Shown here piece by piece: positions 12,321 through 35,812 of a stretch of DNA of 64,000 bases. The position numbers were made by a program, and so were the translations under genes. The stretch is taken from NCBI GenBank assembly GCA_015183035.1, contig JACZZP010000012.1, positions 930,001-994,000 on the forward strand. The letters are read 5' to 3'. Source of the DNA: Meloidogyne chitwoodi (taxonomy: Eukaryota > Nematoda > Chromadorea > Rhabditida > Meloidogynidae). The notes under the pieces were generated by a model. The model had not been told where the DNA came from. It did not search any database and saw nothing but the letters and a program-made list of their open reading frames with translations. Positions within the stretch are counted from its first letter, which is position 1. Every line of letters starts with the position of its first letter.

Positions 12321-12329
12321 TTTAAAAAG

Positions 12330-12825
12330 GACAAAAATTCACCAAATTATGTGAAAAAAAACGTAAAAAATTTTGTAAAAAAGGAGAGGATTGTTCTATG
12401 GGTAAATCAGGTTTAGTAATTTGGAATGGAATTAAACTTAAATTAAAATACAATAATAAATTTATTAATGGATTTGTCAGTGACTTCAACACAGAAATTA
12501 CATTATCTAATGAAATGTTGTTTTTTATTTAATAAAAAATATTATAAATATTTAATTAATTTAAGGTATCAAAATATTTCACTTTTCAATATTAAATTTG
12601 TTAGTAAAGAAGATATTGCTATTTACAAGAAAAAATAATTGAATTACCAAAAATAATAATTTGGCTACAGAATATTTTTTTAAATAAGAAAAGGTGCATA
12701 TTTACATAAATATACTGGCCTTTTGAATATTGGATTGGATATATTACCATCCACTGCCCAAAGAAAATTGAATTTATTTGTTTATAGAGGATGTGGCTAT
12801 GGAATTGAAGCTTATGTAGTTTTAA
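12330..12825 (+). pseudogene. Relic of the multi-galectin secreted family
   Basis: Three exon-like blocks match exons 4, 5 and 6 of the downstream genes. The first (about 12330-12530) gives CEKKRKKFCKKGEDCSMG and WNGIKL. The second (about 12566-12640) gives FNIKFVSKEDI. The third (about 12690-12822) gives GAYLHKYTGLLNIGLDILP and LNLFVYRGCG. The in-frame lead-in to the third block contains a stop, and no signal-peptide exon or later galectin exons are visible nearby. I read it as a 5'- and 3'-truncated fourth copy of the array. Confidence 0.8.
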
Positions 12826-13504
12826 AATATTAAGATTATGTCCAATCGAATAATAAAATATTTAAAAAGCCAAGAACAGATGAAAAACAAACGTTAGAAC
12901 ATTTAAAAATTTAATAGTCCAAAAGCGTTTAATGATTCCTGAGTGAATGTCTGAATAGAAAAAAGCCCAAAAAATTCTGATGTTGGAATTTAATAAAATA
13001 TTTTAAAAAAAGCTTAAATTATAAATCGCATTTTATTTTTAATTTCTTAATAATAAATTTTTATTTTTTTAAATTTGTTGACTATATGTATTTGAAATAG
13101 TAATTAAGTTTTTATTTGTGTAAGGGTGTACTGTATAATTAATTATTAATATTTATGAATTAGTCATTAAATTTAATTTTATTTTTAAGCTTTGAGCGTA
13201 AATCAAATATTAATTACACTGCTGAATTTTTTGAAAACTGTCAGGGGTAGATTAAAAAATAATTAAGATATACCTAATTCCAAAATTGTGAATTATACCC
13301 ATAGAAATAAGTCTTATTTTAATAATAATTTACTAGTAAAACTAAATCTGTGTGGCAAGTAACTAAAAATGATTTAACATTTATTTTATGAAAGATTAAT
13401 TGGAAAATTAATTTTAGTAAAAATGTTTATAAAAATAAAAGCTAAACACTATTTCAATAGATCTATTTCACTAAAATATTTTAAAATATATTTTTTATGT
13501 TAAA

Positions 13505-13747
13505 TGAATCATTAATTTATAATATTTATTTTATTTGGAATTTATCTAATGAATAATTAAATTAATATCTAATCATTTTTAATTGCCACACACATATGTG
13601 CACCCTATATTTATGTGGAAAGTAAAAATAATTATTTACTATTTAATTATGTTTAAATGATGTTAACATTTATTTTAATTTTTTTTAAATAATTAATATA
13701 ATTATAAAAATGTTATTTTAAAATTAATTTTTAGAAAATTAAAAAAA
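13505..13747 (+). promoter_or_regulatory. Upstream region and trans-splice-like acceptor of gene A
   Basis: An AG acceptor in TTTTTAG (13733-13734) lies 13 nt before the ATG in the context AGAAAATTAAAAAAAATG. Genes B and C have nearly the same leader. A motif TGAATCATTAA lies about 240 bp upstream, with counterparts near B and C. The acceptor suggests spliced-leader addition; the promoter role is inference. Confidence 0.5.
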
Positions 13748-16700
13748 ATGTTTAATAAATATTTTATCTTTATTTTGGTTCTAGTCTTAAAAAAGTTTAT
13801 TACTGCAGAAGGAAAACAAAAACAAAATGAACAGTACTATAAATTTAAATATTTTAGTATTTAATTTATATTTTTAGTATTCTTCTAACTGATATGAAAA
13901 CCACCCATCATTCAATATTTTATACAAATATGGACCAATGTATGCTTCGCCCAGGCCAACAAAATATTGGATCTTATGGATTCATTTTTGAAATACCACG
14001 CGGTTTTCTTTGTGACGAGTAAATTAATTAATTAAAAAATTATATTTAATATATTTTTTAGATTAATTATTTGTTATCCAAGTCAATTATTAGGGGTTAA
14101 TGTCAGAAATGGACTTATTCCATCAATTCCCTATCGCCTCAGTAGAAGTAACCAAGTGAGAAATTTAAAATAATTTTGAGTTTAAAATTAGTATGTACAA
14201 CAAATAATTAATAAATAATTTTAAAGAATAATATAACCAAACAATGTGAAGCAAAACGTAAAGAATTTTGTAAAAAGAATAAAAATTTATTATGTTCTAT
14301 TGGACAGCCTGGTTCAACAACCTGGCATGGAATTAAACTTTCAACAGAATATATAGAAAATGAACCAAATAATGTTATGAGTAATGGAACTTTTTATACA
14401 AAGATTTTATTGTCTATTACTAATAAAGAGTTTTTTTATTTTTATTATTATGAATGTTTTTTTAATTTTTAGATATAAATTAAAAGATATTTTAAACTTT
14501 AACATTGAATTTGGACAAAAAGAGGACATTTATACACATGTTTATATTCTTAAATGTTTGTAATTTTAAATAATTTATTTATAACTTAAACTTTTAGCAA
14601 AGTTTGTAAAAATTGATTATTTTGCTAATGATGAGAAGCTTAAAAATGAATATTTATCCAAAATTAATAAAGGTGCATATTTACATAAATATGCTGGTCT
14701 TTGGACTCTTGGAATGGATATATTACCAACAAGAGCTCAACAATATTTGGATTTGTTTGTTTATAGAGGATGTACTTGTCAACTAAATGTTTGGGTAATT
14801 TTATATAGTAATTATACATTTTGGTTAAAATAAATTGAAGTTCACAAACCCGTCAACGCCTGACACATTATTGCCAACAATTGATACTACAAACACTAAA
14901 ATAATCAAAGATAAAGATTGTCCAATAAAATATACAAATTATAGTTTGGAGACATTGGGAAGCATTATTTATGGAGAAAAAACTGTTAAATTTACATTAA
15001 TGACTGGAAATGAAGTAAATGTTGATGAAGGAATCAGCAAAATTGTATTGTTGGATTCTAACAAAAATGAAATTTTTATATTTATTTTTGAAGAGTATAG
15101 AATTTTTTTCAATCCTTTGGTAAAATTTATTTTTTTTTACTTTTTAAATTTACTATCTTTTCAATTTTTAGTTTTAATTTATTTTTTTATTATCTTTTAT
15201 ATAGAATTCAAAACCGTGGTTCGAAATACTATCCAAAAATATTATGATTACAGGTACTAGGATAGATATAATTATACGTCTAAGTAAATACTATGTTTGG
15301 ATATTTATTGTTATTGATAATAATAATAAATTTAACTTCAAATATTGGCCAAAAAATTGGTGGGAAGGATTGTTTATGAGAAATTCTGAAGTTTATTTAT
15401 ACATTTCTGGCGATTTTCTTAAAATAACTCCATTAATTATGCGAACTCTTGACGAGAATGATGTCAAAAATGTATGAAATAATTTTTAAAAATTTTAAAA
15501 ATTTACTCTTAACAAATTTTAAATGTTTGGTACCAAACAGTCCTACCTTCGCTTTTCTTAATTTATTTATTTAAAAAATAATTTATTTATTTTTTTCAGT
15601 TAGCTAATCTTTTTAATCATGATATTGTAATGCCACTTTCATTAGCAATTCCAGAATCTTCTTTTAGAAAAATTGTTTTTAAATTTGCTTGTATGATTAA
15701 TGAAAATGCAAAAACATTTTACATAAGATTATTGTTTGGTGTAAGGGAAGAGAATGAATACAGTAATAATTATTATTTTAATAAAATTAAAAAAAAGTTT
15801 ATTTAGTTGGAAGTACTTTATTTGGTTTAGATGTCAATTTAGATGAAAAAGAAATTAAAGCTTACTCAAAAGAGGTAAGAGATAATTTAAATATTCCTCC
15901 AATCAATTTTTCTTAAAATTTTAGCCCAGTGAATGGTCAATAATGATGTCTTCTACAAATACAACATTATTTGAAAAAGGAAAGCCATTCGAGTGCGAAA
16001 TAGTAGTACAATTGACTGGTGACGAAAAGTTTAAATCATATTTAAATTTCTACGTAAATGATGTACATCAATCTGATTACTCATTTCTTTCGTATTTTCC
16101 ACCATGGATGAATAGAATTTCGGTAGGAATAAAAATACAAATTTTTTAATTGTAAAATTCTTAAGCCTAAAAGTTTCCCTATAATTATAAATATAAGAAA
16201 TCGAAGCCAAGGGGTTAAGAAAATATCTTTTTCTCACTAGCCAGAGACTATTATCAAATACTGATTGAATACTTAAATATTATTTTTTTTTGAAATTTAG
16301 ATTGGAGGTGATATTCAGTTGATGGAATATAAATATGATATTATTGATGAATTAGAAATGCCAGATTTTAAATATAAAAAAGAAATAACAGAATTAAAAA
16401 GCTTTGGGACAATTTTGTGTTTTGAAGCAGAAGTTCCAAATATAAATGAAATTAATAGTAGTGGAGAAGGTTTTAAAATATTTTTACTAAATGATGCAAG
16501 TGAAATTGATGAAAATAGTATATGAAAATTGTAAATAAATAAATATTTTAATAATTTTTTAAGTTGGCTACGCAGTTTTGACTTTATATTTTACGTTCAA
16601 TTTTAATGAAGATAATGTTGTAAATAATATTAAATATAGAAAACCAGAACAAGGATCAGCATTAATTTTAGATTCTAGTTGTACAGATTACTCATGTGGA

Positions 16701-19700
16701 GAAGAACAATATTTTGATAATCCAGTTCATACTGGAACAGAAATAATTATATTAATCTATGCAGAAAAGGATTATTACAATATTAGTATTAATGGAGGTG
16801 ATTATATTCATTACAATCATAGAATTCCTCCATGGACTGTTAACCATGCAATGGTAAGTTGAAGTTTTCTACTCTCAGATAACCTTGTATAGACTACTAG
16901 ATCACAGACAAGGATCTTGAGTAAATATTATTTTTTAATACGATAATGGGAAGAGATTCCACGGGAATTCCCGAAAATCAAAAAAGTGGGGATTTTAAAC
17001 TCTGTATTCCGTAAAATCCAAACCGGACCACTCCCATGCCGTCATCTATTCTATTATAGACTCTGAAGACTATAATTCATTATACAATAAGTTAAAACTC
17101 ATAAAATGTATCATTCCGCCTATAAGAGAAAAATAGGTGGTTTTTTTGAATTTTTTGAATAACTTTATAAATTTTGATTTTTTTGTGGGTAAATGTATAT
17201 ACATTCGATAGCATTTTGAAAGGGCTATCGAATGTATATAAAAGTTTTTTGAAAAAATTCGAACAGTATCGAAAAAATGTCAAAAAACGTGTTTTTTTAC
17301 AAGAGAAAAAGAGGCAGTGGCTGCGGTTTTTTGACCACAACTTTTTTGTGGATAAAGGTACAGAGTTGGTCCCGCCGGTAGGGCACACCTTCAGACTTTG
17401 GGCTATCCAATGGTATAAAAATTGTTCGGATCGGATAAAGATTAGAGTAGTTATGTTTTTGACAAGAATTAAAAAATTGAGATTTATGAGATAGAGGCAA
17501 AGTCAAAAGCACTTTTATTTTAAAGTAGGTAAGATGAGTTGTGGTGTAGTGGTAGTGTGCTGGATTTGCTAATTTGAATCCGGGTTCGAACTCGAAGGGT
17601 GAAAATATTTTTTTAAATATTTCAAGGCCATCTAGACGCAGGACAAATAATCGCTAGGGGCCAGCTAGACGCAAGTCAAGTAATCGCAAGGGGCCATCTA
17701 GACGCAGGACAATTAATCGCAAGAGGCCATCTAGACGCAGGACAATTAATCGCAAGAGGCCATCTAGACGCAGGACAAATAATCGCAAGGGGACATCTAG
17801 ACGCAGGACAATTAATCGCAAGGGGCCATCTAGACGCAGGACATGTAATCGCAAGGGGCCATCTAGACGCAGGACATGTAATCGCAAGGGGCCATCTAGA
17901 CGCAGGACATGTAATCGCAAGGGGCCATCTAGACGCAGGACATGTAATCGCAAGGGGCCATCTAGACTCAGGACATGTAATCGCAAGGGGCCATCTAGAC
18001 GCAGGACATGTAATCGCAAGGGGCCATCTAGACGCAGGACATGTAATCGCAAGGGGCCATCTAGACTCAGGACATGTAATCGCAAGGGGCCATCTTGCAT
18101 GATTTGAGCTCAATTTAAGCTCTTTATGAGTTCAAGATGAGCATGATTTGAGCTCAAAAGGAGCTTAATTATAGCTCAGGATGAGCATGATTTGAGCTCA
18201 AGATGAACATGATTTGAGCTCAAGATAAGCTCGATTTGAGCATGATTTTAGCTCAAGTTGAGATAATTTAAGCTCAAGATGAGCTTGATTGGAGCTCAAT
18301 TTAAGCTCTGTATGAGTTCAAGATGAGCATGATTTGAGCTCAATTTAAGCTTTGTATGAGCTAAAGATGAGCTTGATTTGAGCTCAATTTAAGCTTTGTA
18401 TGAGCTAAAGATGAGCTTGATTGGAGCTCAATTTAAGCTCTGTATGAGTTCAAGATGAGCATGATTTGAGCTCAATTTAAGCTCTGTATGAGTTCAAGAG
18501 GGGCTCGATTGAGCATGATTTAAGCTCAAGATGAGCTCAATATGAGCTTGATTGGAGCTCAATTTAAGCTCTGTATGAGCTAAAGATGAGCTTGATTTGA
18601 GCTTGATTTGAGCTCAATTTAAGCTTTGTATGAGCTAAAGATGAGCTTGATTTGAGCTCAATTTAAGCTTTGTATGAGCTCAAGATGAGCTTGATTGGAG
18701 CTCAATTTAAGCTTTGTATGAGCTCAAGATGAGCTTGATTGGAGCTCAATTTAAGCTCTGTATGAGCTAAAGATGAGCTTGATTTGAGCTTGATTTGAGC
18801 TCAATTTAAGCTTTGTATGAGCTAAAGATGAGCTTGATTTGAGCTCAATTTAAGCTTTGTATGAGCTCAATATGAGCTTGATTGGAGCTCAATTTAAGCT
18901 CTGTATGAGCTAAAGATGAGCTTGATTTGAGCTTGATTTGAGCTCAATTTAAGCTTTGTATGAGCTAAAGATGAGCTTGATTTGAGCTCAATTTAAGCTT
19001 TGTATGAGCTCAAGATGAGCTTGATTTGAGCTCAATTTAAGCTTTGTATGAGCTCAAGATGAGCTTGATTGGAGCTCAATTTAAGCTCTGTATGAGCTAA
19101 AGATAGCTTGATTTGAGCTTGATTTGAGCTCAATTTAAGCTTTGTATGAGCTCAAGATGAGCTTGATTGGAGCTCAATTTAAGCTTTGTATGAGCTCAAG
19201 ATGAGCTTGATTGGAGCTCAATTTAAGCTCTGTATGAGCTAAAGATGAGCTTGATTTGAGCTTGATTTGAGCTCAATTTAAGCTTTGTATGAGCTAAAGA
19301 TGAGCTTGATTTGAGCTCAATTTAAGCTTTGTATGAGCTCAAGATGAGCTTGATTGGAGCTCAATTTAAGCTCTGTATGAGCTAAAGATGAGCTTGATTT
19401 GAGCTTGATTTGAGCTCAATTTAAGCTTTGTATGAGCTCAAGATGAGCTTGATTGGAGCTCAATTTAAGCTTTGTATGAGCTCAAGATGAGCTTGATTGG
19501 AGCTCAATTTAAGCTCTGTATGAGCTAAAGATGAGCTTGATTTGAGCTTGATTTGAGCTCAATTTAAGCTTTGTATGAGCTAAAGATGAGCTTGATTTGA
19601 GCTCAATTTAAGCTTTGTATGAGCTCAAGATGAGCTTGATTGGAGCTCAATTTAAGCTCTGTATGAGCTAAAGATGAGCTTGATTTGAGCTTGATTTGAG

Positions 19701-22700
19701 CTTGATTTGAGCTTGATTTGAGCTCAATTTAAGCTTTGTATGAGCTAAAGATGAGCTTGATTTGAGCTCAATTTAAGCTTTGTATGAGCTAAAGATGAGC
19801 TTGATTTGAGCTCAATTTAAGCTTTGTATGAGCTCAAGATGAGCTTGATTGGAGCTCAATTTAAGCTCTGTATGAGCTAAAGATGAGCTTGATTTGAGCT
19901 TGATTTGAGCTCAATTTAAGCTTTGTATGAGCTAAAGATGAGCTTGATTTGAGCTCAATTTAAGCTTTGTATGAGCTCAAGATGAGCTTGATTGGAGCTC
20001 AATTTAAGCTCTGTATGAGCTAAAGATGAGCTTGATTTGAGCTTGATTTGAGCTCAATTTAAGCTTTGTATGAGCTAAAGATGAGCTTGATTTGAGCTCA
20101 ATTTAAGCTTTGTATGAGCTCAAGATGAGCTTGATTGGAGCTCAATTTAAGCTCTGTATGAGCTAAAGATGAGCTTGATTTGAGCTTGATTTGAGCTCAA
20201 TTTAAGCTTTGTATGAGCTAAAGATGAGCTTGATTTGAGCTCAATTTAAGCTTTGTATGAGCTCAAGATGAGCTTGATTGGAGCTCAATTTAAGCTCTGT
20301 ATGAGCTAAAGATGAGCTTGATTTGAGCTTGATTTGAGCTCAATTTAAGCTTTGTATGAGCTCAAGATGAGCTTGATTGGAGCTCAATTTAAGCTTTGTA
20401 TGAGCTCAAGATGAGCTTGATTGGATCTCAATTTAAGCTCTGTATGAGTTCAATTTGAGCTCAATTTAAGCTCTGTATGAGTTCAAGAGGGGCTCGATTG
20501 AGCATGATTTAAGCTCAATATAAGCTCGATTTGAGCATGATTTAAGCTCAAGATGAGCTCGATTTGAGCATGATTTTAGCTCAAGTTGTATTTGTGTCAT
20601 TCAACTCACAAGAGAACATCACAACATGCTACTTACCGATTTTGACAAAACCTATACCATTCGAAAGAGCTTTTTGAGTAGGTACAGAATCCAAATTTTT
20701 ATGTGCCCGTTTTAATGTATTGTAAAGTTACGAGCTTTTAAAGTTTTAAAAAAGAGGCTCTCCACACTTAAGACCACTTTATACTCTCTTTTCCAGTCCT
20801 TTCCTTGCAGAGGCCCTGCCTTCTCTTCTTTTTCTTGGAGCGGCCGCTGCTAGGAAAGGAAAAGAGAGAAGAGAGGTGATCTTAGGGCCATAGTAAATAG
20901 TAGAGAGAAAGGGACACTTTTGAACAGGATAAGGAACTTTTTTTGAAATTTTAAATGCTCATAACTTTACAATAACTTAAAAGGGCACATAAAAATTCGG
21001 ATTCTGTACCTACTCAAAAAGCTCTTTCGAATTGCATAGGTTTTGCCAAAATCGGTGAGTAGCATGTTGTGATGTTCCCTTGTCAGCTAGACGATCTCTT
21101 TAGAATTATACATAATTCATCCATTAAAAAAACCATTTTTTGTTAAAAAAGCATGTTTTTTTGACATTTTTTCGACATTGTCGGCTTTTTTCAAAAATTT
21201 TTATATACATTCGATAGCCCTTTCCATAATCTATCGAATGCATATACATTTATATAAATAAAATTTTAAAGTTATTTAAAAAATTAAAAAAAACGCCCTA
21301 TTTTTCTCTTATGGACGGAACCAGTGCTCTTCGCGCTTGTAACACTGATTCTAAATAAAGTGAAAAATATTCTAAATGGCAAGGGCTAAAGAAACTCCTT
21401 AAAACATGTAGGACAAAATAGTTAAATTAAAACATACACGGACAGTAAAATTGAGCTCAAGATGAGCTCAAAATGAGCTCAAATCGATCTCATATTGTGC
21501 TCGCTTTGAGCTCAATTTAAGCTCGATTTGAGCTCGAGATGTACTCGATTTGAGCTCTATATGAGCTCGATTTAAGCTCTATATGAGCTCGAGATGAACT
21601 CGATTTAAACCCAAGATGAGCATGATTTAAGCTCAAGATGAGCTCGATTTGAGCTCGATTTAAGCCTATATGAGCTCAATTTAAGCTCTATATGAGTTCG
21701 AGATGAACCAAGTTAGGCTCAATTTTAGCCCAAGTTTGGCTCATGTTAGGCTAAGTTGGACAAGTTTTGTTCAAGTTTGACAAAAATTAAGCTCAAGTTT
21801 GGCAAAAGCTTGGCCCAATTTAGGCTCAAGTTTTGCTCATGTTAGGCTCAAGTATGTCTCAACCTTGGCTCAATCTTGGCTCAGGTTTGGGTCAAGTTTA
21901 GCTCAAGTTAGGCTCAAAATTGGCTCAAGTTAAGCTCAAGTTAGGCTCAAGCTGGGCCCAAATTAGGATCAAGTTTGGCAAAAGCTTGGCTCAATTTTGG
22001 GTCAAGTTAATATCAAGTTTGGCAAATGCTTGGCTTAACCTTGGCTCAAGTTAGGCTCAACCTTGGCTCAAATGTGGCCCAAGTTTTGTTCAAGTGTGGC
22101 TCAACCTTGGCTCAAGTTTACCCAAGTTTGGCCCAAGTTTTGCTTAAGTTTGGCTCAAGTTTACCCAAGTTTGGCTAATGTTAGGCTAAAGTTTGGCCTT
22201 GGCTCAAGTTTGGCTCAAGTTAGGCTCAAGTTTGGCAAATGCTTGGCTAAACTTAGCAAAAATGTCGGCTAATCCAAATGTACAACTGTACAGTAATACG
22301 ACTATAAAAAATTACAAATATACAATTGTACAAAGGTACAGTTAAAAAAATTGCAGCACTTTTCATATTAAAAATGGGGGTTATGTTTAAAGATTAACCA
22401 GGATGGATTTTAAGTTTTTTTTTGTATTTTAGGCGGTTTTAAGGGAGTTTTTATTAACTGAGATTTTAATGAGTAATTGTTTTTATGCTGTGGAATGAGG
22501 GGTTGCCTTTTTACAGTGGTTAAGGAGCGGGTTATTTTTAAAGTTGATTTTTATTTTTAAATTGAAGTTTTATTTTTAAGAGGGGGTTTTGAGGGGTTAT
22601 TTTCTTATATTTTACCCAAAATTTTCTAGAATTAGTGTTACAAGCGCGAAGCGGTTTCTTTATTCCAGTCGCGAAGCGGCTGGTTCTATTATATAATTAT

Positions 22701-23607
22701 TAAAGGCTATAGTTTAATTAACTTTTATTTAAAATTTGTTTTTCAGATAATAGGATATATAAAAAACGTTAATTTTAAATCTAAAAAATGTGAAATGATT
22801 GAAAAAAATTTACCTAAGTTTGAATTGCCATTTAATGTTTTGAGTGTAAGACCTTTAAAAGAAAATGAAATTATAATAATTATTGGTAAAATTAAAAAAG
22901 ATCCAATAAATGAGCCAATAATTATTTATCTTTTAAATGGAGCAATCGAACGAAGTGAAGAATGTAGACACATATTTTTAAATTTTTAATATATTTTTTT
23001 ATTTTTTAGATGGTAATCTTGTATTAAATATTAATATCACAAAGAATAGTTTATCAATGAATTCCTTTGCGGTATAAAACTTTATAAAAATAAATAAATA
23101 ATTTAAATTAGGGTTGGTGATCTCTTGGCGATTCCGGATATTCGAACTCTAGAAAAGGTCTTATAACAGAAAATTTTTGATTTGAATCTCGGTTCCGAAT
23201 AGTCGAAATTTTCCAAGAACCGCTTTCTGAGGAAGGGAATAAGAAGGGGAAAGGGAATTATTTAATGGAAACAAACATTAATAAATAAATTTAACAGAGA
23301 GGAAAATGGTTGCTTCCAACTAATAAACAAATAAAACATAATCTTTTTTTAATTGAAAAACAAAATATTAAAATAATATTTTATCATTCACCGAAAATGA
23401 TTAAATTTGAAATAGAAACTAGAAATAATATTTTTGAAGGTTCATATAATGCTTTAATTCCTTATATTGCTACACATTATGTTGAGGTTAGTTTACTCAA
23501 ATAATTATATTATTTTTTAACAATTTAATATTTTTTAGGTTCTGGGACTTGATAAAACTGAAAAAGATAATTTAATTAGTTTAAAAAGAAAAATAAAAAA
23601 GAATTAA
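13748..23607 (+). CDS. Gene A: secreted multi-galectin-like protein
   Basis: About 17 exons: 13748-13833, 13878-14018, 14062-14155, 14227-14429, 14473-14555, 14598-14794, 14841-15119, 15205-15471, 15600-15762, 15807-15874, 15925-16122, 16301-16517, 16564-16853, 22747-22963, 23010-23071, 23298-23486, 23539-23607. A signal peptide (YFIFILVLVL) comes first. A Cys-bearing region follows, with MDQCMLRPGQ, ICYPSQL, CEAKRKEFC and CSIGQPGSTTWHGIKL. The rest is galectin-like. PFECEIVV, FYVNDV, FPPWMNRIS and IGGDIQL form one C-terminal half; GTEIIILIYAEKDYYNISI and HYNHRIPPW form another; a third starts at LPFNVLSVRPL. The canonical H-NPR and W-E sugar contacts are not seen, so galactose binding is doubtful. 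Extracellular role inferred. The 5.9 kb intron after exon 13 is exceptional. Confidence 0.8.
17538..17604 (+). repeat. tRNA-like sequence, probable SINE head
   Basis: TGGTGTAGTGG resembles a pol III A box and, about 35 bp further, GGGTTCGAACTC resembles a B box. The T stem pairs poorly and no seven-base acceptor stem can be drawn, so it is not a functional tRNA. It lies directly before the 33-bp minisatellite. Confidence 0.5.
17627..18093. repeat. 33-bp minisatellite, about 14 copies
   Basis: The unit reads GGCCATCTAGACGCAGGACA followed by TGTAATCGCAAGG. Early copies have ATTAATCGC or AAATAATCGC in place of TGTAATCGC, and later copies are nearly identical. Since 33 is divisible by three, long open frames arise by chance on the minus strand; they have no start context, splice sites or protein similarity. 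Confidence 0.95.
18094..20590. repeat. 11-bp-periodic GAGCT satellite with higher-order repeats
   Basis: About 2.5 kb is built from 11-bp words such as GAGCTCAATTT, AAGCTTTGTAT, GAGCTAAAGAT, GAGCTTGATTT and GAGCTTGATTG. From about 18540 to 20430 the words follow a recurring order. One common higher-order unit is 13 words (143 bp), mixed with shorter versions that lack two to four words. The 5' and 3' edges are more degenerate, the pattern of a satellite homogenised by unequal exchange. Confidence 0.95.
20602..21092. mobile_element. Palindromic element with ~135-bp inverted arms
   Basis: The arms at about 20602-20745 and 20945-21092 (inverted) share GAACATCACAACATGCTACT, AGAGCTTTTTGAGTAGGTAC and TTTTTATGTGCCC with few mismatches. 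The 200-bp centre is itself partly palindromic (CTTTTCCAGTCCTTTCC against GGAAAGGAAAAG) and is much more GC-rich than its surroundings. No coding capacity. It is nested in the satellite-bearing intron. Confidence 0.8.
21445..22270. repeat. Second, diverged block of 11-bp satellite
   Basis: The block at 21445-21715 still uses GAGCTC words (GAGCTCGATTT, GAGCTCTATAT). From 21715 to 22270 the word becomes GGCTCAAGTTT or GGCTCAAGTTA, with many irregular spacings. The shared 11-bp frame suggests common ancestry with the main array. An open frame at 22063-22272 here is a by-product of the repeat. Confidence 0.8.
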
Positions 23608-24256
23608 ATTATAGATACATATTTGAAGTATATTTTTTTTATTTTTTTAGAAATAGTATATATTTTTGTAATTATTATACATTAAAAATAAATTTTAAAT
23701 GATACTTTGTTAAAAATTATAATTATATGTTATCTCTGGTATTCTTTTCAATACTTGGCCGTAGTTTGGTTTCTGTCTCTTTTTTAAAAACGGGCAAACT
23801 ATGTAATGTATATTATATTATATTATTCGAAAGAGATCGTCGAGCTGAGTCGAATGACACTAAAATTAGTTCAAAGAAACAAATATGGACCAAGTTACAG
23901 GTCCCAGAAAATTGAAAACCCATAGAGGGGACCAAGCTCATTTTCTGGGTGACAAATTAAATATGAGTATGATAGTTTAGACCGTCCAATTTGATTACAA
24001 GGCAATTTACTTATAAATATAATAATTATTATTATAATTCATATATTTTAAATAATTTTATGAATCATTAACTTTTTATTTTTATCTACATTTATGCATT
24101 TCCCAAATCTGTTGTCATTAAATTAAAAAATTTTAGTCATCATTAAATTTTTTTGTGTTATTTTATTTTTAAATTGTTCAGTTAATTTTAAAAAACATAA
24201 AATAATAATTTTTCGTTAATTTTTATAATATAATTAATTTTAGAAAAATTTAAAAA
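23608..24256. other. Spacer between genes A and B with a dispersed repeat
   Basis: The part at about 23810-23970 contains AGAAAATTGAAAA, CCAAGCTCATTTTC and AAATATGAGTATGATAG. Very similar pieces occur in the same order in the foldback element near 39250-39330, so it is a dispersed repeat. Gene B's leader shows TTTTAG at 24242-24243 and ATG at 24257, and TGAATCATTAA lies at about 24060. Confidence 0.6.
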
Positions 24257-27200
24257 ATGTTAATAAAAACAAAAAATGCATTAAATTATAATATTTTAGT
24301 ATTATTATTTTTTATTTTGCTCATTTTGATAAATGCTCAAGAAGATGAGGAAGAAGATTATGGAAAACAAAAATTGGATAATGGATTGTAAAATAAATTT
24401 ATTTATTTTTTAATATACAAAAATTTAATGGCATCTACTAAAAAGTAGATGGCGTTTACTTTAAATTAAATTTTGCGGACATTAGAATTATAATTATTAA
24501 AAAAATAAATTTAATTCGCAAAAAAGCCTCTTCTGTAATATTTATAATATTTTTATTTCAAATTTTTTAAAAATTATTAAATTCTACATATAATATATTT
24601 TAGTGTTTATTTAACGGAAATGAACAAAACTCATCAAATAATTGATTATTTAAATATGGACCAATGTATGTTGCGTCCAGATCAAGAATATCATGGATCT
24701 TATGGTTTAGTATTTTATGAATATCCTGAGCTACTTTGTGACAAGTAAATTAAATTTTTAGAGCAAATGGAATATAATTTATTATTTCAGACTGTTAATC
24801 TGTTATCCAAGTCAATTAAGTGGCAATAACACACAAAATGGATTAATTAAGGCAATTCCTTATCGCTTACGCGAGGCCAATAAAGTGAGATTTTTTAATT
24901 ACTGTATTTCCTAAAATAAACTACATTTGTTGGAGGGTAATTATAAATTTTATAAAAATAATTTTAAAGAATGCTGTCACCACAGACTGCGAAGAAAAAC
25001 GCAAAACTTTTTGTAAACAAGCAAAAAATAATGAATGTTCTCTTGGCCAACCGGGTTCAACTTTATGGCATGGGATTAAACTTATGACTGAATTTAATAA
25101 AACTCACTATATTACGACTATTTTTTTGTCTTTCTCCGAAAAAAAGTTTGGTTCTAAATATAATAATTATGAGGTTATTCTCGTTATAAAGACTTCACAA
25201 GAGAATGATCTCCGATGTTATCCTTATAACGAGAATCAACTAGACGAAAGAAAAATTAATTTTTAAAAAATATTTGTTAAAATTTTATTATGGTGTTCGG
25301 AGAATTCCTAGCAGATTTTTGGACAATTCCTTTTCGTGTCCCGCAATTTTCTTCACTGGAAAGTTTCGTTTCGCTCGACATTTATTCTAATATTTAGGTA
25401 TGGCTGTCACGTTTATTCACTTACAATTAGTAACAAAAATTCCAAAATTTTGGTGACGAAATTTCCGGCCACTTCCTCTTCAACATAAAATTCCTCTCCG
25501 AGTAGATTTTAAATTTTTTTATTAATAAATTAAAGAATAATTTTTGGTCACTTAATGATTATTCTAAAATATAATATAATTTTTTAAATGATTTTAATAA
25601 TTATTTGGAGATGATTTTTCTGTTAAAATAATAATTTTGATCGTAGATGTTCCTTTTAAGATAAATTGTCCAAAAATCTAGAGAGGAATATTTTGGAGAG
25701 GAAAATAATCATTATATTTTATAGCTATTCTATACCAAATATTGCACGTTTCGATATTGAATTTGGTAGAAAAAAAGACATTTTCACAAAAATTTATGCA
25801 ACAGAAATTAGAAAATGTTTGTTAGTTATATCTTTATTCTTTATGTTTTAAAAATTTTAATTTAATGCTATTTACATTAAAAAAGCAAAAAAATACCTCA
25901 TTTGCTACGTTACTTATTGGGAAATTTATGATAGGATGTGACCCTTGGCTAACATAAGCATTATATTGTTAATTCTATATAATCAGATTTCTTTTACAAA
26001 TAATTTATCTTAACAATTTTCAGTTAAAAACAACATTAAATACGTAAAGGAAAGAGAAATTATCTTTGCTAATGATGAGAAGCTTAGAAATGAATATTTA
26101 TCCAGAGTGGACAAAGGTGCATATTTACATAAATATGCTGGTCTTTGGACTCTTGGAATGGATATATTACCTTCTAGAGCTCAAAGATCTTTACATTTGT
26201 TTGTTTATAGAGGATGTGTTTGTAGTAATGAAGCATGGGTAAGTTTAATTAAAAAGAGGCAAAAATATTAAATTCTAGAAATTTTAAGACTAATTGTCAG
26301 CCTCGAAAATCGAAATTAAAACCTCTAACTTTTCAATTTATGATCCTAATCCAAAAAAAGTAAACTTGTTAGTAGGTTATCTCTATAATGTTCTACACGA
26401 TAGAACAAAATTTCGAAATTCGAACATTTCTAGATTTGATAAAATGTTAAAACTCATAATGGTCATAACTTAATTAATAAATTCCATATTAAATTATAGT
26501 TTAAAACGCCAACTACACCTGCTTTATCAATCCCAGTTTTACCTATAACTAAAACAGCCAATAAAGAATGTTTAATTAGACATACATACAACAATAAATT
26601 TAAGTTAGGCAACATTGATAAAATAGAAAGGCATATTAATTTTATATTATGGACTAGCAAAATTGGAAGCAAAGGAGTGATTGAATTACTTGATATGAGA
26701 GAAAATGTTGTTTTTGAAATAATTTTTGATAATTTTGGAATTAAATTTAATGCAAATGAGGTCAATATTTTTTTATTAAATTTTTTAAAATATATTAATT
26801 TTGCTGAATTTTTTAAGTTTATTATTTTTTAAAATGTTTTATTTTCTAATTTTTTTTAAATGTATTCAAATTATATTTTTTGAATTTAGTCAAATATTTG
26901 TTTATATGAATCTGAAAATCTTATGGTTAGAAGTGTAAAGATAAATATTCTAATGCGTTTAAGCAAATATTTTATTTGGATAAATTATCAAGTTGATGAA
27001 TTAAAACCAATAAATTGTAAATATTTTCCAAAAGATTGGTTTGAAGGAAATTTTATAAATGAATCAGATAATCTTATGATAAGAATTGATGGAGATTTTC
27101 TTACAATAACTCCTGTGTTAATTAGAGATTTTTTTGAAGATGATGAATTAGAGGTAAAAGAAGTTATTTTTATAAAATTTAGATATTTCCCCAATATTTA

Positions 27201-30200
27201 AATAAAATTATTATTAATTATAAGTATATTTTAAAGAACTCTTAGAGCTAAACATTAGACTGTAGTCTCAATTCCGGGCCGAGATATAGATCATTGAAAA
27301 GTTAAAAACATATGACGGCCTCCACATAGTCAATAAATGCTAGAACTTTTTCTATGATTTTTAAAACAAAAATAATTTAAAATATTTAAGTTAGCTGATA
27401 AAATGGATCAAATAATTAAAATGCCATTTTTTATAAGATTAAATAAAGAAATTATTAAAGATGTTGTTATTTTTGATTTTTATTTAATTGTTTTGGATAT
27501 TGCAAAAGAATTTTCTATAAAGTTGAGGGATAATCCTTGGGAAGAAAATAAATATGGTTATTTTAAAGTCATAAAATTATTTATTTTTTAAATCAAATTT
27601 TACAGTTGGAAATACTGTTTTTGCTTTAGAAGTTGATATTTTAAACAAAACAATCAAGACATATTCAAAAGCTAAGGTTATCAAGTTTTTTTTATTAATA
27701 AAATATTAATTTTGATAATAATTATTATCAATATTATCAAAAAATTTTAATAAAAAATAAAATTTAGGACAAAATATTGGTTTCAGAATTTGAAGATAAT
27801 ATAATAATTAAACTAGGAAAACCACTAGAAATTCGTTTAGAAGCAAAAAGGCATAAAATTAGAAATAAACTTAGATATATGACTGAAGAAACATTAATTT
27901 TTATTTCTATAAATAATATAATGTTAGAAAATATCACAATAAAAACAGAATTACCAATATGGATGATCAATACAATAATGGTAAATATTTTATTTTTTAA
28001 CAATATAATGTAGATTCCCTAATGTCAAATAGAGGCTAACAATAAAAAGGTATTACCTAATCGTAAAATTCACGAATAAAAAAATTGTCAATTTTTTTAA
28101 TTTTTAAAAATTATAAAAATTTTAATAGTCTACATAAATTAGTATATATTTAGTAGCAGTGATGTCCCGGTTCCAAATTTTTGTTCGGTTCCGCGGTTCC
28201 GGTTCCGGAGCGGTTCCAAAATTTAACGGTTCCTCGGTTCCGGTTCCGACCGGAAGTGGAACCGGTGCCGGTTCCCGGAACCGGGACATCACTGTTTAGT
28301 AGTACCAATATTTATTTGTTGGGCGGTGTAGGAAGAGATAGTCAGTGAAAAATAATAACGGGACTGAAGCTTACCCAAATGTGTTAATTTTTATTTTTTA
28401 GTTAAATGGAAGTATTCAACTGCTTAATTTAGACACTAATGAATTTATTGATGAGTTATCATCCTCGCGAGAAGAGGCAAATGATTTTTTATTATTTAAA
28501 AAAAGATTAAATGAATTAAAATTTTATGGAGAAATTTTCTGTTTTGAAGCTTTTGTTCCTGAAATGACAGCTAATATATTTATAAATAATTTTTTCACAA
28601 TAAATTTGATTCATAATGCGGAAGAGACAGAATTTAATCAAAATTGTTAGTCAAAATTAAAATTTATTTAAATAAAACAAATAAAAATTTTGTTTTCATA
28701 CCTAATGTTCAAATTATTAATTACTTACATTTAAAATATTTAAAATTTATTTAAAATAATAAATAAAATTTTATTTTATATACTACTATTAATTTTAATT
28801 TGTTTTTTAAAGATGGTACGACTATTTTGACAGTGCATTTTATATTTGATACTTCTATGGATCTAATTTTCACTGAATCAATTGCAAGATTAGAAATAAT
28901 ACAAAACTATTATAATGTTTCTAAAGAAAAACATTTTATTAATCCAATTGGACAATCAGGTGTGAAAATATTAGTATTAATTCATGCAGATGAAGATAAT
29001 TTTATAATTAACGTTAATGAAGGAATTAATGACTTTAAATATGAAAACATGTTTCCAACGTGGGCTATAAGTAATGTTGAGGTAAACAAAATTTTTTACT
29101 TTTAATTTCCGAAAATATAAAAACACTAACAAAGAAGAGTTCCCTGTGTCTGTGGGACTTTGGAATGAAATTTTGAGGGTTCACGCCTGGTCCTGAGCTT
29201 ATTCTACGATGAGAGAAAAGGATTAGGAGACTCATCCTAGTTGACTCGACTGACGCTCAGTTGATAATTTACAATTTTATTTATTTATAAAAAAGTTAGC
29301 TAAATTTATTCCTCTAAAAACATTTACCATTCCTAAAAAAAATAATTAACATTTTTAGATCACTGGTTCAATAATTAATATTGAATATAATACTTATAGA
29401 TGTAATAAACTTATTGAAGAAAAAAAAGTTCCTAAATTTGAATTACCCCCAAATATATTAAAAAAAGATTTAACAAAATATGACAAAATATTTATAATAA
29501 TAAGACTTCCAATAATTTTCAATGAAACTATTTTTATTAATTTATTAAATGGAGCTCCTAAATTTGACGAACAATGTATGTATAAATTTATTTAAATATT
29601 AATTATAAGTAAAGTTATTATTTATATTTAGTTGGATTTACTATTTACCAACTGGAAATTAAAAATAATTGTTCAATTCAAAACACATTCGTAGTAAGTT
29701 TTTAACTTTTTTCATTTTTCAGGTAAGATTCTGCAAATTGCTATAATTTAATTAAAAAATAATTATTTATAAAGAAAGTTGCAGATAAAATTTGCGGATT
29801 ATTTGAAGGTTTAAGGGTTATTTTATAAGTAATATTAATGCATAAGTTGAAATTCCTTAAATAATTTTAGAGAAGATCACAATTTCGTTGTATTTTCGAA
29901 ATTTTAATAAATGAAATTTCCAAAATTCTATAATTTTTATTAAACCAAATAATAATTATTAGTCTTAAATATGTAAACATCTTTTAGAATGGAAATTGGT
30001 TAGATACTAATTCTGTTTGTGAAGGTCATAAAGAATTAAAAGGTGGAGAAAGAATAAGAATAATTATATATCAATTTAATGAAACATTTATACATACAGA
30101 AATAGAAACAATGGAATTTGTAATTGAGAGAAAATATGAAATTAAAATCTCTTATTCCTTTACACAATATATTCAGGTTAAATTTTTTATAAATAAAAAT

Positions 30201-30420
30201 TATAAATAGTGGGAAATAGGGCACTTTTATAATTTAGAATTACTTAAAAGTTCTGTTCTATGGAAATTTTTTCTAAAACAAAGATATATTTGTGGCCCCT
30301 AAATTCACATACTTATTTTGATATATTTCTTATGTATTAAAATTAAAAAGCTAATTTTTATAGGTTGGCGGAGATTTTGAAGAAATTGATTCAATTGAAG
30401 TTGTAAAATTTAAAGATTAA
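24257..30420 (+). CDS. Gene B: secreted multi-galectin-like protein
   Basis: A paralogue of gene A with the same exon order (about 17 exons). Exon 1 (24257-24387) encodes a signal peptide (NILVLLFFILLILINAQ) and an acidic stretch. Then come MDQCMLRPDQ, ICYPSQLSG, CEEKRKTFC, CSLGQPGSTLWHGIKL, FDIEFGRKKDIF and GAYLHKYAGLWTLGMDILP. Galectin-like blocks follow: ITPVLIRDFF (26889-27152), TELPIWMINTIM (27769-27980), SIQLLNLDT (28402-28645), NPIGQSGVKILVLIHADED (28813-29081), LPPNILKKDL and NGNWLDT. The last exon (30364-30420) reads VGGDFEEIDSIEV. The intron after exon 4 (about 25146-25720) is enlarged by non-coding insertion, and a 138-bp MITE lies in the intron before exon 12. No disabling lesion was seen. 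The sugar-contact residues of true galectins are not evident, so the ligand is unknown. Confidence 0.8.
28157..28294. mobile_element. 138-bp hAT-type MITE with exact 8-bp target duplication
   Basis: The ends are CAGTGATGTCCCGGTTCC and its inverse. The interior is rich in GGTTCCGG words. The flanking 8 bp TTTAGTAG is exactly duplicated (28149-28156 and 28295-28302). Size, CAG termini and 8-bp duplication fit a non-autonomous hAT element inserted in an intron of gene B. Confidence 0.92.
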
Positions 30421-30671
30421 AAATATATATAAAATTAATAAAAAAGTTATTTTTTTGCACGTATTAAATGATTCATAAATTATATTTTTCGATAGATAAA
30501 ATTTAAAAAAAAATATTTTTTTTTTATATAATTAAACATAATTAAAAGTTATAGTCATTTTACTACATTTTTTTAAACAAAATATAAATTTAGTTTATAA
30601 AATAATCATTAATTTTTTTTTAATTTAAAATCATTTATTTTTTTAATTAAATATTTTAGAAAATTAAAAAA
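30421..30671 (+). promoter_or_regulatory. Short intergenic region driving gene C
   Basis: Only 251 bp separate genes B and C. TTTTAG (AG at 30658-30659) lies 12 nt before the ATG in the same AGAAAATTAAAAAAATG context as gene A. A TGATTCATAAATT motif lies about 205 bp upstream, similar to the TGAATCATTAA motifs before A and B. Operon or independent promoter cannot be decided from sequence. Confidence 0.5.
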
Positions 30672-33600
30672 ATGATTATAAAAGAGATAAATTCTTTAAA
30701 TAAAATTTTTTATTCCTTTATTGTTTTCCTACTTTTATTTAAAAATTTAAACGTTCAAGGTGAAGAATGGGAAAAATATCAACATCAAGGCGATAATTCA
30801 TAGTACAAAATTTAAAAAATTAATTTAAATATTATCAAAAACGAGTATTTTGAGTGGGGACACTTTCTTTTGATTTTATCCATAATTTATATAATAATTA
30901 CATCTTTTTTGACATCGTTTAAAGGCTAGGACGTCAGTGTCCCAACCGGCCTCATCCAAATGGCCGTAATGAAATAACATTATTATTTTAGTTTTTATCT
31001 TTCTTCTGAGCAAATAACACAACATACAATCCCATATTTAAACATGGACCAATGTATGCTACGCCCTGGTCAACGCGAACATGGCTCATATGGTTTTGTA
31101 TTTAAAATAGAAGAAGACATATTGTGTGATAAGTAAAAAAAATTAAATAAATTTAAAAAATTTTTTTATTTTTTTTTATATTTTTAATATGTTACCCAAG
31201 CCAGTTAAATGGGAAAAACAAACATGATGGAAAAATTACTTCAATTCCTTACAGACTTAATCAAAAAAGAGTGATTAATATATTTTTTTAATATTTTTAT
31301 AAAAATAAATTTAAAGAATGAAGTTGCCAAAGAATGCGAAAAAAACCGTAAAAAATTCTGTGACCAAATAGAAAATAAAATTGAATGTTCTATTGGCCAA
31401 CCAGGATCCTTTATTTGGCATGGGATTATGCTCACAACTGAATATTTATATGAAGAGTCAGTCATTTCTACAAAAATTTCTTTGTCATTCACCAACAAGG
31501 AGTTTGTTTTAATAAAATTTGTTTTATCCATTTTGGAACCTCAAATTTAGGACTTTTGGAAAATAATAATAAAAAAATAATTTAGATATCAATTAAAAAA
31601 TTTAACAAAATTCAATATTGAATTTGGCCGAAAGGAGGATATTTTTACACATATATATCCAACAAATGAAGGTAATTAAAAGTTTTTATTTAATTATGTA
31701 CATATAAATAAAAAATTAATTTTTAGATCCAAAAGAGAATAAATATCTGCAACAAAAGGAAATTAATATTCAAAGTTATGAAGAATTATTATTTTCTTCA
31801 TTGAAATTAACTGATAATAAACTTAAAAATGAATATTTATCCAGAGTGGACAAAGGTGCATATTTACATAAATATGCTGGTCTTTGGACTCTTGGAATGG
31901 ATATTTTACCTTCTAGAGCTCAACAATCTTTAAATTTGTTTGTTTCTAGAGGATGTTATTGTGCATTACAATCTTGGGTAAATAATTACAAAAAGTGTAG
32001 TTTTCTCTCCATTTTTCAAATTATCTGTCTTTTATATTATTTATTTTTCTTTGAAAATAAAAAAATTTTTGGGAACTCAAATGGTTTGTGTGGCATAAGG
32101 AAAATTAACTAAAAAATATTTTATTTTTAATTAATAATAAATATTTTATTTAGTTTAAAATACCAACAACATTGGCTTCAATAATTCCAATAAAACCATT
32201 AATACCTAAATTTTTACATAATAATAAAATTATAACATATAGCAAAGGATGTTCAGATATATTTACTACCGACAAATTATACTCTTTGGGCAATATAAAA
32301 TATGAAGAAAAATTAGTTGAATTTAAATTGTTGACTAGTAAAGGAATGTTTGGTTTAATTGAATTATTTGATGACAATTATAACATTTTTCTTAGAATTG
32401 AAATTAATCTTGGTGTGATAGAATTTCATGAATTTGGAGTAAAATTTATAATAAAAATAATTTAAAAAAAATTATTTTAAAAAGGAACAATTACATTATG
32501 AGAAAAAAATGGAGAATGATTTATTAACCGGAAAAAAATATATAAAAATGAAAATACTTTTAAATAAATATTTTATTATATCTAAACTTGAAATTAAAAA
32601 TGATATTACTTTACATAAATTTTTTCCTTCATCGTGGTGGAAAGGAAAATTATTAAAAAAAGGATTTGAAAATATAAATATGAGGATTCATGGCCATATT
32701 ATTGCAATTACTCAAATATTTGTTAAATCAATTAAAAAAGATGATTATTATCAAGTAAAAAAATTAATTAAAATTGCAGCCTTATTTATAAAAATTATTT
32801 AAATTTTTATGTTTATTATTTTATTTTTTATCCACATTTGTACAATTTTATATTATTAAAATTATTTATTTATTAACATTATTTTTTAGTTGAATGATGA
32901 AATGGATTATATAAAAAAAATGCCACATTCGATTAGCCTTAATGAATTTATTGAAGGACATTCTGTTTTATTTGTATTTAAATGTATAATTAATGATAAT
33001 GCTAAGGGATTTTATATAAGATTAAATAAAGATGTAGAGAAAATAAATAAATATGGTAGTATTGTTTATAAAATAAGTATTATTTTTTAAATTATATTTT
33101 AGTTGGAAAAACTATATTTGGATTGGAAGTCAATTTTATAAACAATAAAATTACAACTTATTCTAATGTAAGTACTTAATATTTATATTAATTATTATTT
33201 TGTTTTTTATTATTATTTTGGAAATATTAGTTTTATTTGGTTAATTTAAGGTAAATATGCGCAAAAAAGTGTAGATAAAAAATCTCGGACCTTTGGGCGC
33301 CTAAAACTGAAATTAAATTATTATAATTAAATATTTTTGTATAAAAAACATAATTTTAGGACAATAATAATACTTTGTCTAATGATAATAAAATATTTAA
33401 AAATGGTCATCCATTTGATTGCAAAATAATTTTAGAAAAAGAAAATTATGGCATAAATATTATTGTTAATGGTGTAGAGTTGAATGAAAATAGAATACAA
33501 GAAAAATATTTGCCAATATGGATGATAAATCTTATCTCAGTGAGAATTATTGTTATAAATTATATAAGACTTTTTTTTATAGAATCTCTATATTTAGTAT

Positions 33601-35812
33601 TAAATCCTTTGTTAACACTCCCTTTCCATTATGAAATAGGATTGTCATTTCTTGGAGAATTACCGGGTATCTGATCCTAAACCGAACTTCGGTATCTTAA
33701 TTCTTTCGGTAATATAAATTTTTAAAGTAATCAGATTGTCAATACATAACACATTTTTTAATTAAGATTGGTGGAGATATTCAACTCATTGATTATTCTA
33801 AAGAGGATCGTTATATACTAGGATTTCCATATAGGAAATTTAAGAAACAAATAGAAACAGAAGATTCAAATATTATTTGTTTTGAGGCAAATGTTCCTAG
33901 AGCGGAAGATATGCATGAAATAAATGGCTTTGAAGTAAATTTATTACAAGATGTGAGTGAATTCGACAGAAATTGTAAGAAATTATTTTTTTGTAAAAAA
34001 TATTATGCTTTTTTATAGTTGGCGATAAAGTGTTAAACCTTAATTTTACATTCGACCTTGATATGACTCCATTTGATGAAGTATATATTAAAAGCAAAGA
34101 AGAAAGAAGTCAAGAGGAAGGAAGAGGATATCACGAACAAAAAAGTGGTAATGAGGAGCCAAAGAACGCTGAAGAAGGAAGAGGTCATAACGGAGGAAGA
34201 AATAGTCAAGAAGGAAGAGGTCATAACGGAGGAAGAGGTAGTGAAGAAGGAAGAGGTCATAACGGAAGAAGAAATAGTCAAGAAGAAGGAAGAAGTCATA
34301 ACGGAGGAAGAGGTAGTGAAGAAGGAAGAGGTCATAACGGAGGAAGAGGTAGTGAAGAAGGAAGAGGTCATAACGGAAGAAGAGGTAGTGAAGAAGGAAG
34401 AGGTCATAACGGAAGAAGAGGTAGTGAAGAAGGAAGAGGTCATAACGGAGGAAGAGGTAGTGAAGAAGGAAGAGGTCATAACGGAGGAAGAGGTAGTGAA
34501 GAAGGAAGAGGTCATAACGGAGGAAGAGGTAGTGAAGGAAGAGGTCATAACGGAGGAAGAGGTAGTGAAGAAGGAAGAGGTCATAACGGAGGAAGAAATA
34601 GTCAAGAAGGAAGAGGTCATAGCGGAGGAAGAAATAGTCAAGAAGGAAGAGGTCATAACGGAGGAAGAGGTAGTGAAGAAGGAAGAGGTCATAACGGAGG
34701 AAGAGGTAGTGAAGAAGGAAGAGGTCATAACGGAGGAAGAGGTAGTGAAGAAGGAAGGAGTATGGGAGGAAAAACCAATCCAATTCTAAAAATAAGCAGC
34801 TTTTCACATAACACTCGTCAGAGACACGAGAAAATTGTCAGAAATCCTATTGGACAGACTGGGTTGCCAATAGTTGTGCTAATAAAAGCTTACGATGATT
34901 CCTACTATATAAGCGTTAATGAGGGAACTGAAGAAATTAGTTTCAACTCTATATTTCCTTATTGGGTCATAAATTATATCATGGTAAGTTTTTATTTCAC
35001 CTACATTTTATTTAACTATAAGTTTATTTATTTTATAGATTACAGGCAGTATTTCTGATGTTGTTTTTGATGATAAATCTGAAAGATGTCAGAAGCTAAA
35101 AAGTAATTTGAGGATTTTTAGGCCTGAAAATGTAGAAAAAATACCAAAGAACTTGATAAAAGACGATAAAGATAAAATAACAATTTTTGGAGAAATCAAA
35201 AAACCAATTGCAGTTATATATTTTCTATATGGAGTTTGGAGATGGAACGAAGGTTTTTTTTAATGTGTTATACCCCATTCTAAGCTTTCCTTTTGCCTGC
35301 CATTCTGCTTTAAGCAACATTCTAATTTAGCTTTTCTTTTTTGCTTCAGCTTTATTTTTACATATAAGCGTTAATATTACAGATTTTACCTACATATATT
35401 AATCTAATAATGTTATTATAATTATTTTTCTTTTAATTATAGTTGGAACCACAGTTTTGCGAATATCCATTTCTCAAAATTGTACATGTCTCAATTCTTA
35501 TGCTGTAAGTATTTATTTAATTCTCTAAAAATTTATTAAAAACGACAGAATGGGACTTGGTTAAAAGAAAAACCTGATCATTGTGAGAATGACGATAAAG
35601 ATTTAGTTGGTCAATGTAAGGACCATGAAGTTTTATTTGATGGACAGAAAATTATATTAAATATATACGTTATTAATGATACAACAATAAAAGTAGAAAT
35701 TCAAACGGAAAAAAATATAATTGAATTATTTTATAATTTGCCAATGCCTTTAAGTTTAACACAATATATTTATACGAAAAATTTTAATACTATTAATATT
35801 TCAATAGAATAA
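30672..35812 (+). CDS. Gene C: multi-galectin-like protein with 12-residue repeat insert
   Basis: The third array member. Exon 1 (30672-30802) gives a signal peptide (FYSFIVFLLLF). The family core follows: MDQCMLRPGQ, CEKNRKKFC, CSIGQPGSFIWHGI, FNIEFGRKEDIF, YLHKYAGLWTLGMDILP. Later exons give galectin-like blocks: GHPFDCKIIL, IIVNGVEL, LPIWMINLIS and IGGDIQLIDYS, then NPIGQTGLPIVVLIKAYDD with FPYWVINYIM, then NGTWLKEKPD. Exon 34019-34983 is unusually long because of the repeat insert. The intron after exon 2 has no AG where A and B splice (before LICYPS). The first AG, at 31199-31200, restores frame but removes that stretch and its Cys. A working protein is plausible but not certain. Confidence 0.75.
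34177..34752 (+). repeat. 36-bp coding minisatellite, 16 units (GRGHNGGRGSEE)
   Basis: Sixteen units of 36 bp encode GRGHNGGRGSEE or the variant GRGHNGGRNSQE; unit 3 is one codon longer and unit 10 one codon shorter. All length changes are multiples of three. The plus strand is almost all purine. The array interrupts the galectin-like domain between the strand LNLNFTFDLD and the strand NPIGQTGLPIVVL, where gene A has only about 40 residues and gene B about 25. Other frames are also open only because the unit is a multiple of three. Confidence 0.95.

Follow-up and report, generated by a model that had tools for sequence, protein, structure and literature searches.

A Meloidogyne family of predicted secreted proteins that join a conserved cysteine-bearing N-terminal region to four galectin-like domains

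Introduction

In animals, most galectins are synthesized in the cytosol, exit the cell through a non-classical pathway and bind galactosides. They typically carry no signal peptide (PMC7053492, PMC9402972), their sugar-site residues are H44, N46, R48, V59, N61, W68, E71 and R73 (PMC5297725), and in jawed vertebrates the galectin carbohydrate-recognition domain is described as encoded by three exons, of which the middle one is characteristic (PMC10343441). Here we analyze three head-to-tail genes (A, B and C) and a relic in 64,000 nucleotides of the root-knot nematode Meloidogyne chitwoodi (assembly GCA_015183035.1, contig JACZZP010000012.1; hereafter the window, which is contig C4:930001-994000 of the 47,477,280 bases and 30 contigs that we searched). 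These genes encode predicted secreted proteins in which a conserved cysteine-bearing N-terminal region is followed by four galectin-like repeats (D1 to D4).

Among described systems the nematode tandem-repeat galectins (Toxascaris Tl-gal, Brugia LEC-1/LEC-2) likewise have the galectin fold in repeated domains, with two domains rather than the four found here, and the Brugia proteins, unlike this family, are reported to be without signal peptides (PMC9402972). The oyster proteins CvGal1 and CvGal2 also have four galectin domains in tandem; CvGal1 is without a signal peptide, and the portion of the source consulted mentions no Cys-bearing N-terminal region for either (PMC7053492). In sponge galectins a predicted signal peptide accompanies the galectin domain, as here, but there is one domain in one exon (PMC10343441). 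In M. chitwoodi itself, other galectins (eight exon loci spread over contigs C3, C23, C28 and C29) belong to the same Pfam family, and motifs such as HFNPRF and WGKEER set them apart from the array family. Contigs C3, C23 and C28 have no N-terminal-region matches; C29 has just two weak rows, which lie 1.6 Mb away from its galectin exons. The C-type lectin Mg01965 of M. graminicola has a lectin fold other than that of galectins. Like the proteins described here it is a secreted lectin-type root-knot nematode protein, and it is expressed in subventral glands and was tested by RNA interference (PMC6637863). In M. hapla, the zone that recombines fastest includes a galectin among its predicted secreted proteins (PMC12643312). 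The parts of the present family are not wholly new; its N-terminal region, four-domain layout and site loss were not found in the literature searched, where no title or abstract beginning described the four-domain layout together with such an N-terminal region.

Results

The repeated blocks had been called galectin-like in a first-pass annotation made from the letters of the window, and direct matches bear this out for gene A and one piece of gene C. Pfam Gal-bind_lectin (PF00337) matched gene A exons 1-13 in two stretches (E 7.2e-18), gene A exon 13 in a six-frame search of the genome (E 1.1e-8) and the exon 9-12 piece of gene C (E 9.2e-8). The structure-prediction check proposed with that annotation also came out in favor of galectin folds for D1 and D2, as judged from models of family relatives in other species; for the P0002 model, Foldseek ranked Toxascaris Tl-gal first (E 1.6e-11). 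A profile comparison between D1 and D2 gave nothing, and their kinship rests on fold. A galectin beta-sandwich is thus predicted for D1 and D2 from the models of relatives and for D3 from Pfam. D4 is borderline, the last domain of gene A scoring E 1.3e-4 and 21.9 bits, just below the 22.1 cut-off. By exon make-up, exon 1 is signal-peptide-like, exons 2-6 encode the N-terminal region and exons 7-8 encode D1, which has two exons; D2 occupies exons 9-12a, D3 exons 12b/13/14a and D4 exons 14b-17. The D3 arrangement agrees with the three-exon pattern described for jawed vertebrates, and the middle exon is split in D2 and D4.

The N-terminal region (roughly 240 residues, present in A, B and C) had been described as common, Cys-bearing and without assignment, and it proved to be all three. 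It was rejected as a known domain after Pfam gave no consistent match (four different families, each in one of 10 members, best E 0.006), no relative appeared among PDB sequences or PHROGs, and a profile comparison with D2 yielded nothing. In an alignment of 10 of the 20 members that are long enough, 46 columns are invariant. All eight cysteines are present in 19 of 27 proteins, the remaining eight being short gene models gapped there, and none of the 27 has another residue at these positions; disulfides are predicted. When the region was modeled and fold-searched jointly with D1 (mean pLDDT, predicted local distance difference test, 74.5 including D1), the VIA rows fell mainly on D1 and the best Foldseek rows spanned at least 400 columns of two-domain galectins; modeling of a set of eight sequences gave a mean pLDDT of 50.5, with the N-terminal region outside the models. 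It may hold a remote galectin-like or other known fold.

A search with the gene A N-terminal region returned 72 exon rows in the genome at E <=0.01, which group into 21 loci: 14 on C4 (the window's four included), four on C25 and a single locus on each of C26, C27 and C29. The 16 family regions examined include 14 genes that have 8-16 of the 17 exons, in unchanged order; fragments are L025a (four exons) and L029 and L032 (one exon each). Relatives in other Meloidogyne, for which a search had been suggested, do exist: 26 distinct protein relatives were found, all in this genus, by searching that detects only relatives with shared short words and similar length and that in part scored the best 8,000 candidates. 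One of them, M. hapla P0022, has nearly the full layout, with a hydrophobic start, the N-terminal region (one part missing in the gene model) and four domains. The six-frame Pfam search of the genome recognized array-family loci by exon 13 only (10 of 63 rows). On contig C3, at about 638-697 kb, there is a dense galectin-exon cluster without an N-terminal-region match (four C3 loci looked at), a second galectin expansion separate from the array family.

The array genes are 44% (A-C and B-C) and 41% (A-B) identical. The closest paralogue of gene A is L030 on contig C26 (68%) and that of gene C is L019a, 0.7 Mb away (63%); the tree agrees, grouping A with L030 (support 0.99) and C with L019a (1.00) and leaving B alone on a long branch. 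We therefore rejected a young tandem duplication, so that the array first described as tandem is one of head-to-tail neighbors and not a recent local amplification. The N-terminal region has the lowest omega in seven of seven pairs compared (Table 1), these being pairwise estimates without a statistical test, in which a value near 1 does not show positive selection. Synonymous difference among the array genes is 0.26-0.30 in exon 6 versus 0.51-0.67 in exons 2-5 (family medians 0.48 and 0.59), and in this exon 6 gap the array pairs rank 1st, 7th and 10th of 120, with L019a pairs also high; the simplest reading would therefore be local gene conversion of exon 6. Elsewhere on C4, L021 and L022 (264 kb and 298 kb) lie in inverted orientation about 34 kb apart and are 97.5% identical over 2.66 kb (N-terminal region and D1) and then 81-84%, which places a copy boundary within the gene.

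Table 1. Omega by region (Nei-Gojobori, BLAST-matched exons with truncated matches; the seven pairs partly share genes).
Pair	N-terminal	D1	D2	D3	D4	Remark
A/L030	0.44	0.48	0.92	1.15	0.72	
C/L019a	0.30	0.72	0.67	0.97	0.72	
L018/L023	0.33	0.43	0.83	0.69	0.34	
A/L018	0.29	0.51	0.67	0.75	0.54	
A/B	0.38	0.63	1.16	0.48	0.48	near saturation
B/C	0.47	0.93	0.58	0.53	0.72	near saturation
L021/L022	0.37			0.56	0.42	

We then considered the sugar site. The expression HxNxR was rejected as a discriminator, since it failed to part the family from other galectin loci (69 matches across the 154 kb of family regions, of which one region alone accounts for 38, and four in the array); we therefore used D3 strands placed by eye without gaps, which could be read in 12 of the 17 genes of the genome that have exon 13 (A, B, C, L018, L021, L022, L023, L025b, L027, L028, L030 and L031, with L023 the least certain placement; the strand lies outside coverage in L017, L019a, L019b, L024 and L026). 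R48 is found in none of the 12, H44 in one (gene B) and N46 in two (L018 and L028). W68 and E71 are retained in some paralogues, for example L027 and L030, and none of A, B and C has a tryptophan at the W68 position. Read in six frames, the pattern W..E.R was counted 12 times within the 26 kb surrounding the eight other galectin exons (six of eight loci, two overlapping), five times within the 154 kb that make up the 16 family regions (four of 16) and not at all in the window's 23.6 kb. In the strands placed, D3 is without the sugar-site arginine, and for this domain the loss proposed for the proteins at first pass is borne out. As D3 is the best-recognized domain and is without key galactose-binding residues, the ligand is likely other than the usual sugar.

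Exon 1 is signal-peptide-like by hydrophobicity in A, B and C, as had been claimed for each gene, and unlike the usual galectin without a signal peptide, to which sponge galectins are known exceptions. Root-knot nematode effectors are characterized by a signal peptide without a transmembrane domain, by gland expression and by delivery to the plant. The strongest hydrophobic stretch is N-terminal in A (exons 1-13; 15 residues from residue 6) and in B. At 14 of 15 paralogue starts (not L025a), exon 2 is preceded by a hydrophobic ATG frame, in A/T-rich DNA and with the chance rate uncontrolled. The proteins are predicted to be secreted.

Discussion

We give roughly an even chance to the reading that this family, confined to Meloidogyne in our searches and predicted to be secreted, consists of likely extracellular, multivalent binders of ligands other than classical beta-galactosides. 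The N-terminal region would serve as a constant, disulfide-held platform and the galectin-like domains as the variable, ligand-contacting part, which would diversify by substitution, exon conversion and loop insertion (the gene C repeat). The most probable place of action would be the host interface, meaning the plant apoplast or the surface of the nematode, with the worm's own body fluid less probable, and judged from sequence an extracellular binding role there is likely. A more specific version, that this is a genus-specific constant-plus-variable recognition family in which a conserved cysteine-held head carries four freely evolving galectin-fold modules, which have lost the galactose site and serve as a scaffold for new host-interface ligands, conversion keeping exon 6 of the head alike as the modules diverge, seems to us rather unlikely. 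A large Meloidogyne family with predicted entry into classical secretion, four galectin-like domains behind a conserved cysteine-rich head and a central site residue lost in D3 would clearly exemplify recruitment of the galectin fold for another use. Domain searching largely overlooks the family, whose members form a delimited set of candidate interface proteins open to testing.

Several observations weigh against the reading of secreted host-interface binders with a constant head and variable domains. D1 has no galectin match at the sequence level and that of D4 is weak; gene B and the remaining gene C pieces have no Pfam galectin match at E <=1, and the galectin assignment of B therefore rests on homology to A and the family. 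In L018/L023, D4 is constrained like the N-terminal region, and in A/L030, D1 is nearly as constrained as that region (Table 1); the pairwise nature of the omega estimates applies here too. Residue loss is placed in D3 alone, and predicted secretion has hydrophobicity in A/T-rich DNA as its basis. The Mel-DOG motif TGCMCTT within 1 kb upstream is a mark of root-knot nematode dorsal-gland genes, present in only part of them and not found for subventral genes (PMC8158474). Upstream of A, B and C the motif does not occur, nor does it at any of the 15 paralogue starts, where the sequence scanned reached 766-1200 bp before exon 2 and hence less far ahead of the start codon; this lowers the likelihood of a gland role; the whole 64-kb window has six copies, and absence in 3 kb is therefore weak evidence. 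Finally, the word "galectin" does not occur in the title- and abstract-level listing of the M. chitwoodi gland-effector paper.

The missing dorsal-gland motif would also suit proteins that act inside the worm, as body-fluid or matrix binders in its own immunity or cuticle, with a diversity that reflects microbes and not the plant; a signal peptide does not specify which outside is meant. Every relative found is nevertheless from a plant-parasitic genus, which fits a role in parasitism without proving one, and we consider action inside the worm somewhat unlikely. The proteins may still bind sugars as lectins, through a shifted site or through some of their domains, and we lean only modestly away from this: not all eight site residues are essential (PMC5297725), some paralogues keep W68 and E71, and the residue placement covers one of the four domains, but against this stand the D3 counts for the arginine, histidine and asparagine and the missing tryptophan in A, B and C.

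The family might alternatively be an ordinary divergent galectin family, already annotated in databases and merely expanded in this lineage. Several relatives are indeed named "Galectin domain-containing protein" in UniRef and NCBI, and a table of the predicted M. javanica secretome contains 38 galectin-domain proteins (PMC10236835). Many relatives, however, are named "Uncharacterized", and the literature searched did not yield a description of the N-terminal region or of the four-domain layout; this explanation too falls on the unlikely side. Very improbable, in our estimate, is a decaying pseudogene array: one copy is a relic, gene C has no canonical exon-3 acceptor and a gene A intron is filled with repeats, yet in A and B every modeled exon has an open frame and every modeled intron is GT-AG, and N-terminal omega is 0.29-0.47 in the seven pairs.

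Gene models and other features of the window

The three genes have an identical exon order and common intron phases (0,2,2,0,2,1,0,0,0,1,0,0,1,0,1,0,0), and every modeled intron is GT-AG (Table 2). The first-pass annotation counted three complete genes and a relic with shared exon order; A and B are complete with 17 exons each, the relic is reduced to exons 4-6, and C is not clearly complete because it has no canonical exon-3 acceptor. No AG occurs in 31133-31198, near the position of that acceptor in its closest paralogue; the first downstream AG is at 31199, and its use would lose one of the eight conserved cysteines.

Table 2. Features of the array, in window coordinates.
Feature	Position	Strand	Remark
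Relic, exon 4-, 5- and 6-like segments only	12326..12830	+	matches 12332-12508 and 12561-12803, 47-48% identity to gene A
Gene A, 17 exons	13748..23607	+	
A exon 1, signal-peptide-like	13748..13833	+	hydrophobicity
A exons 2-6, conserved Cys-bearing N-terminal region	13878..14794	+	
A exons 7-8, D1	14841..15471	+	fold predicted via model of relative
A exons 9-11, D2 (end in exon 12)	15600..16122	+	fold predicted via model of relative
A exons 12-13, D2 end and most of D3	16301..16853	+	PF00337 E 7.2e-18
A intron 13, repeat-rich	16854..22746	.	
A exons 14-17, D3 end and D4	22747..23607	+	PF00337 21.9 bits vs cut-off 22.1
Gene B, 17 exons, 953 aa	24257..30420	+	
B exon 1, signal-peptide-like	24257..24387	+	hydrophobicity
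B exons 2-6, N-terminal region	24604..26238	+	
B exons 7-8, D1	26500..27153	+	
B exons 9-11, D2 (end in exon 12)	27391..27980	+	
B exons 12-13, D2 end and most of D3	28402..29081	+	
B exons 14-17, D3 end and D4	29359..30420	+	
Gene C, 15 exons modeled, exon 3 unmodeled, exons 16-17 as one	30672..35812	+	
C exon 1, signal-peptide-like	30672..30802	+	
C exons 2 and 4-6, N-terminal region	30992..31977	+	
C site expected for exon-3 acceptor, without AG	31133..31198	+	
C exons 7-8, D1	32154..32754	+	
C exons 9-11, D2 (end in exon 12)	32890..33539	+	PF00337 E 9.2e-8, exon 9-12 piece
C exons 12-13, D2 end and D3 with in-frame repeat insert	33767..34983	+	
C D3 repeat, 36-bp (12-residue) unit, 16.3 copies	34170..34757	+	Gly/Arg/His/Glu-rich
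C exons 14-16, D3 end and D4	35039..35812	+	

All four genome matches of the 12-residue gene C repeat lie within D3 of gene C itself. Intron 13 of gene A (5.9 kb) holds 33-bp, 22/143-bp and 11-bp tandem arrays and inverted repeats. Adjoining its 33-bp array, at 17530-17605, are tRNA-like promoter boxes, perhaps the remnant of a short interspersed nuclear element; ARAGORN found no tRNA there, and tRNA and Rfam scans of the window gave no match. Intron 11 of gene B has a G/C-rich palindromic GGTTCC-type repeat at 28138-28296 in otherwise A/T-rich surroundings. Before the start codons of A, B and C (13728-13750, 24238-24259 and 30654-30674) stands a nearly identical TTTTAGAAAA...TAAAAAAATG stretch, which could be a trans-splice acceptor. 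Farther along, the open frame at 54238-54663 carries a signature resembling that of folylpolyglutamate synthase.
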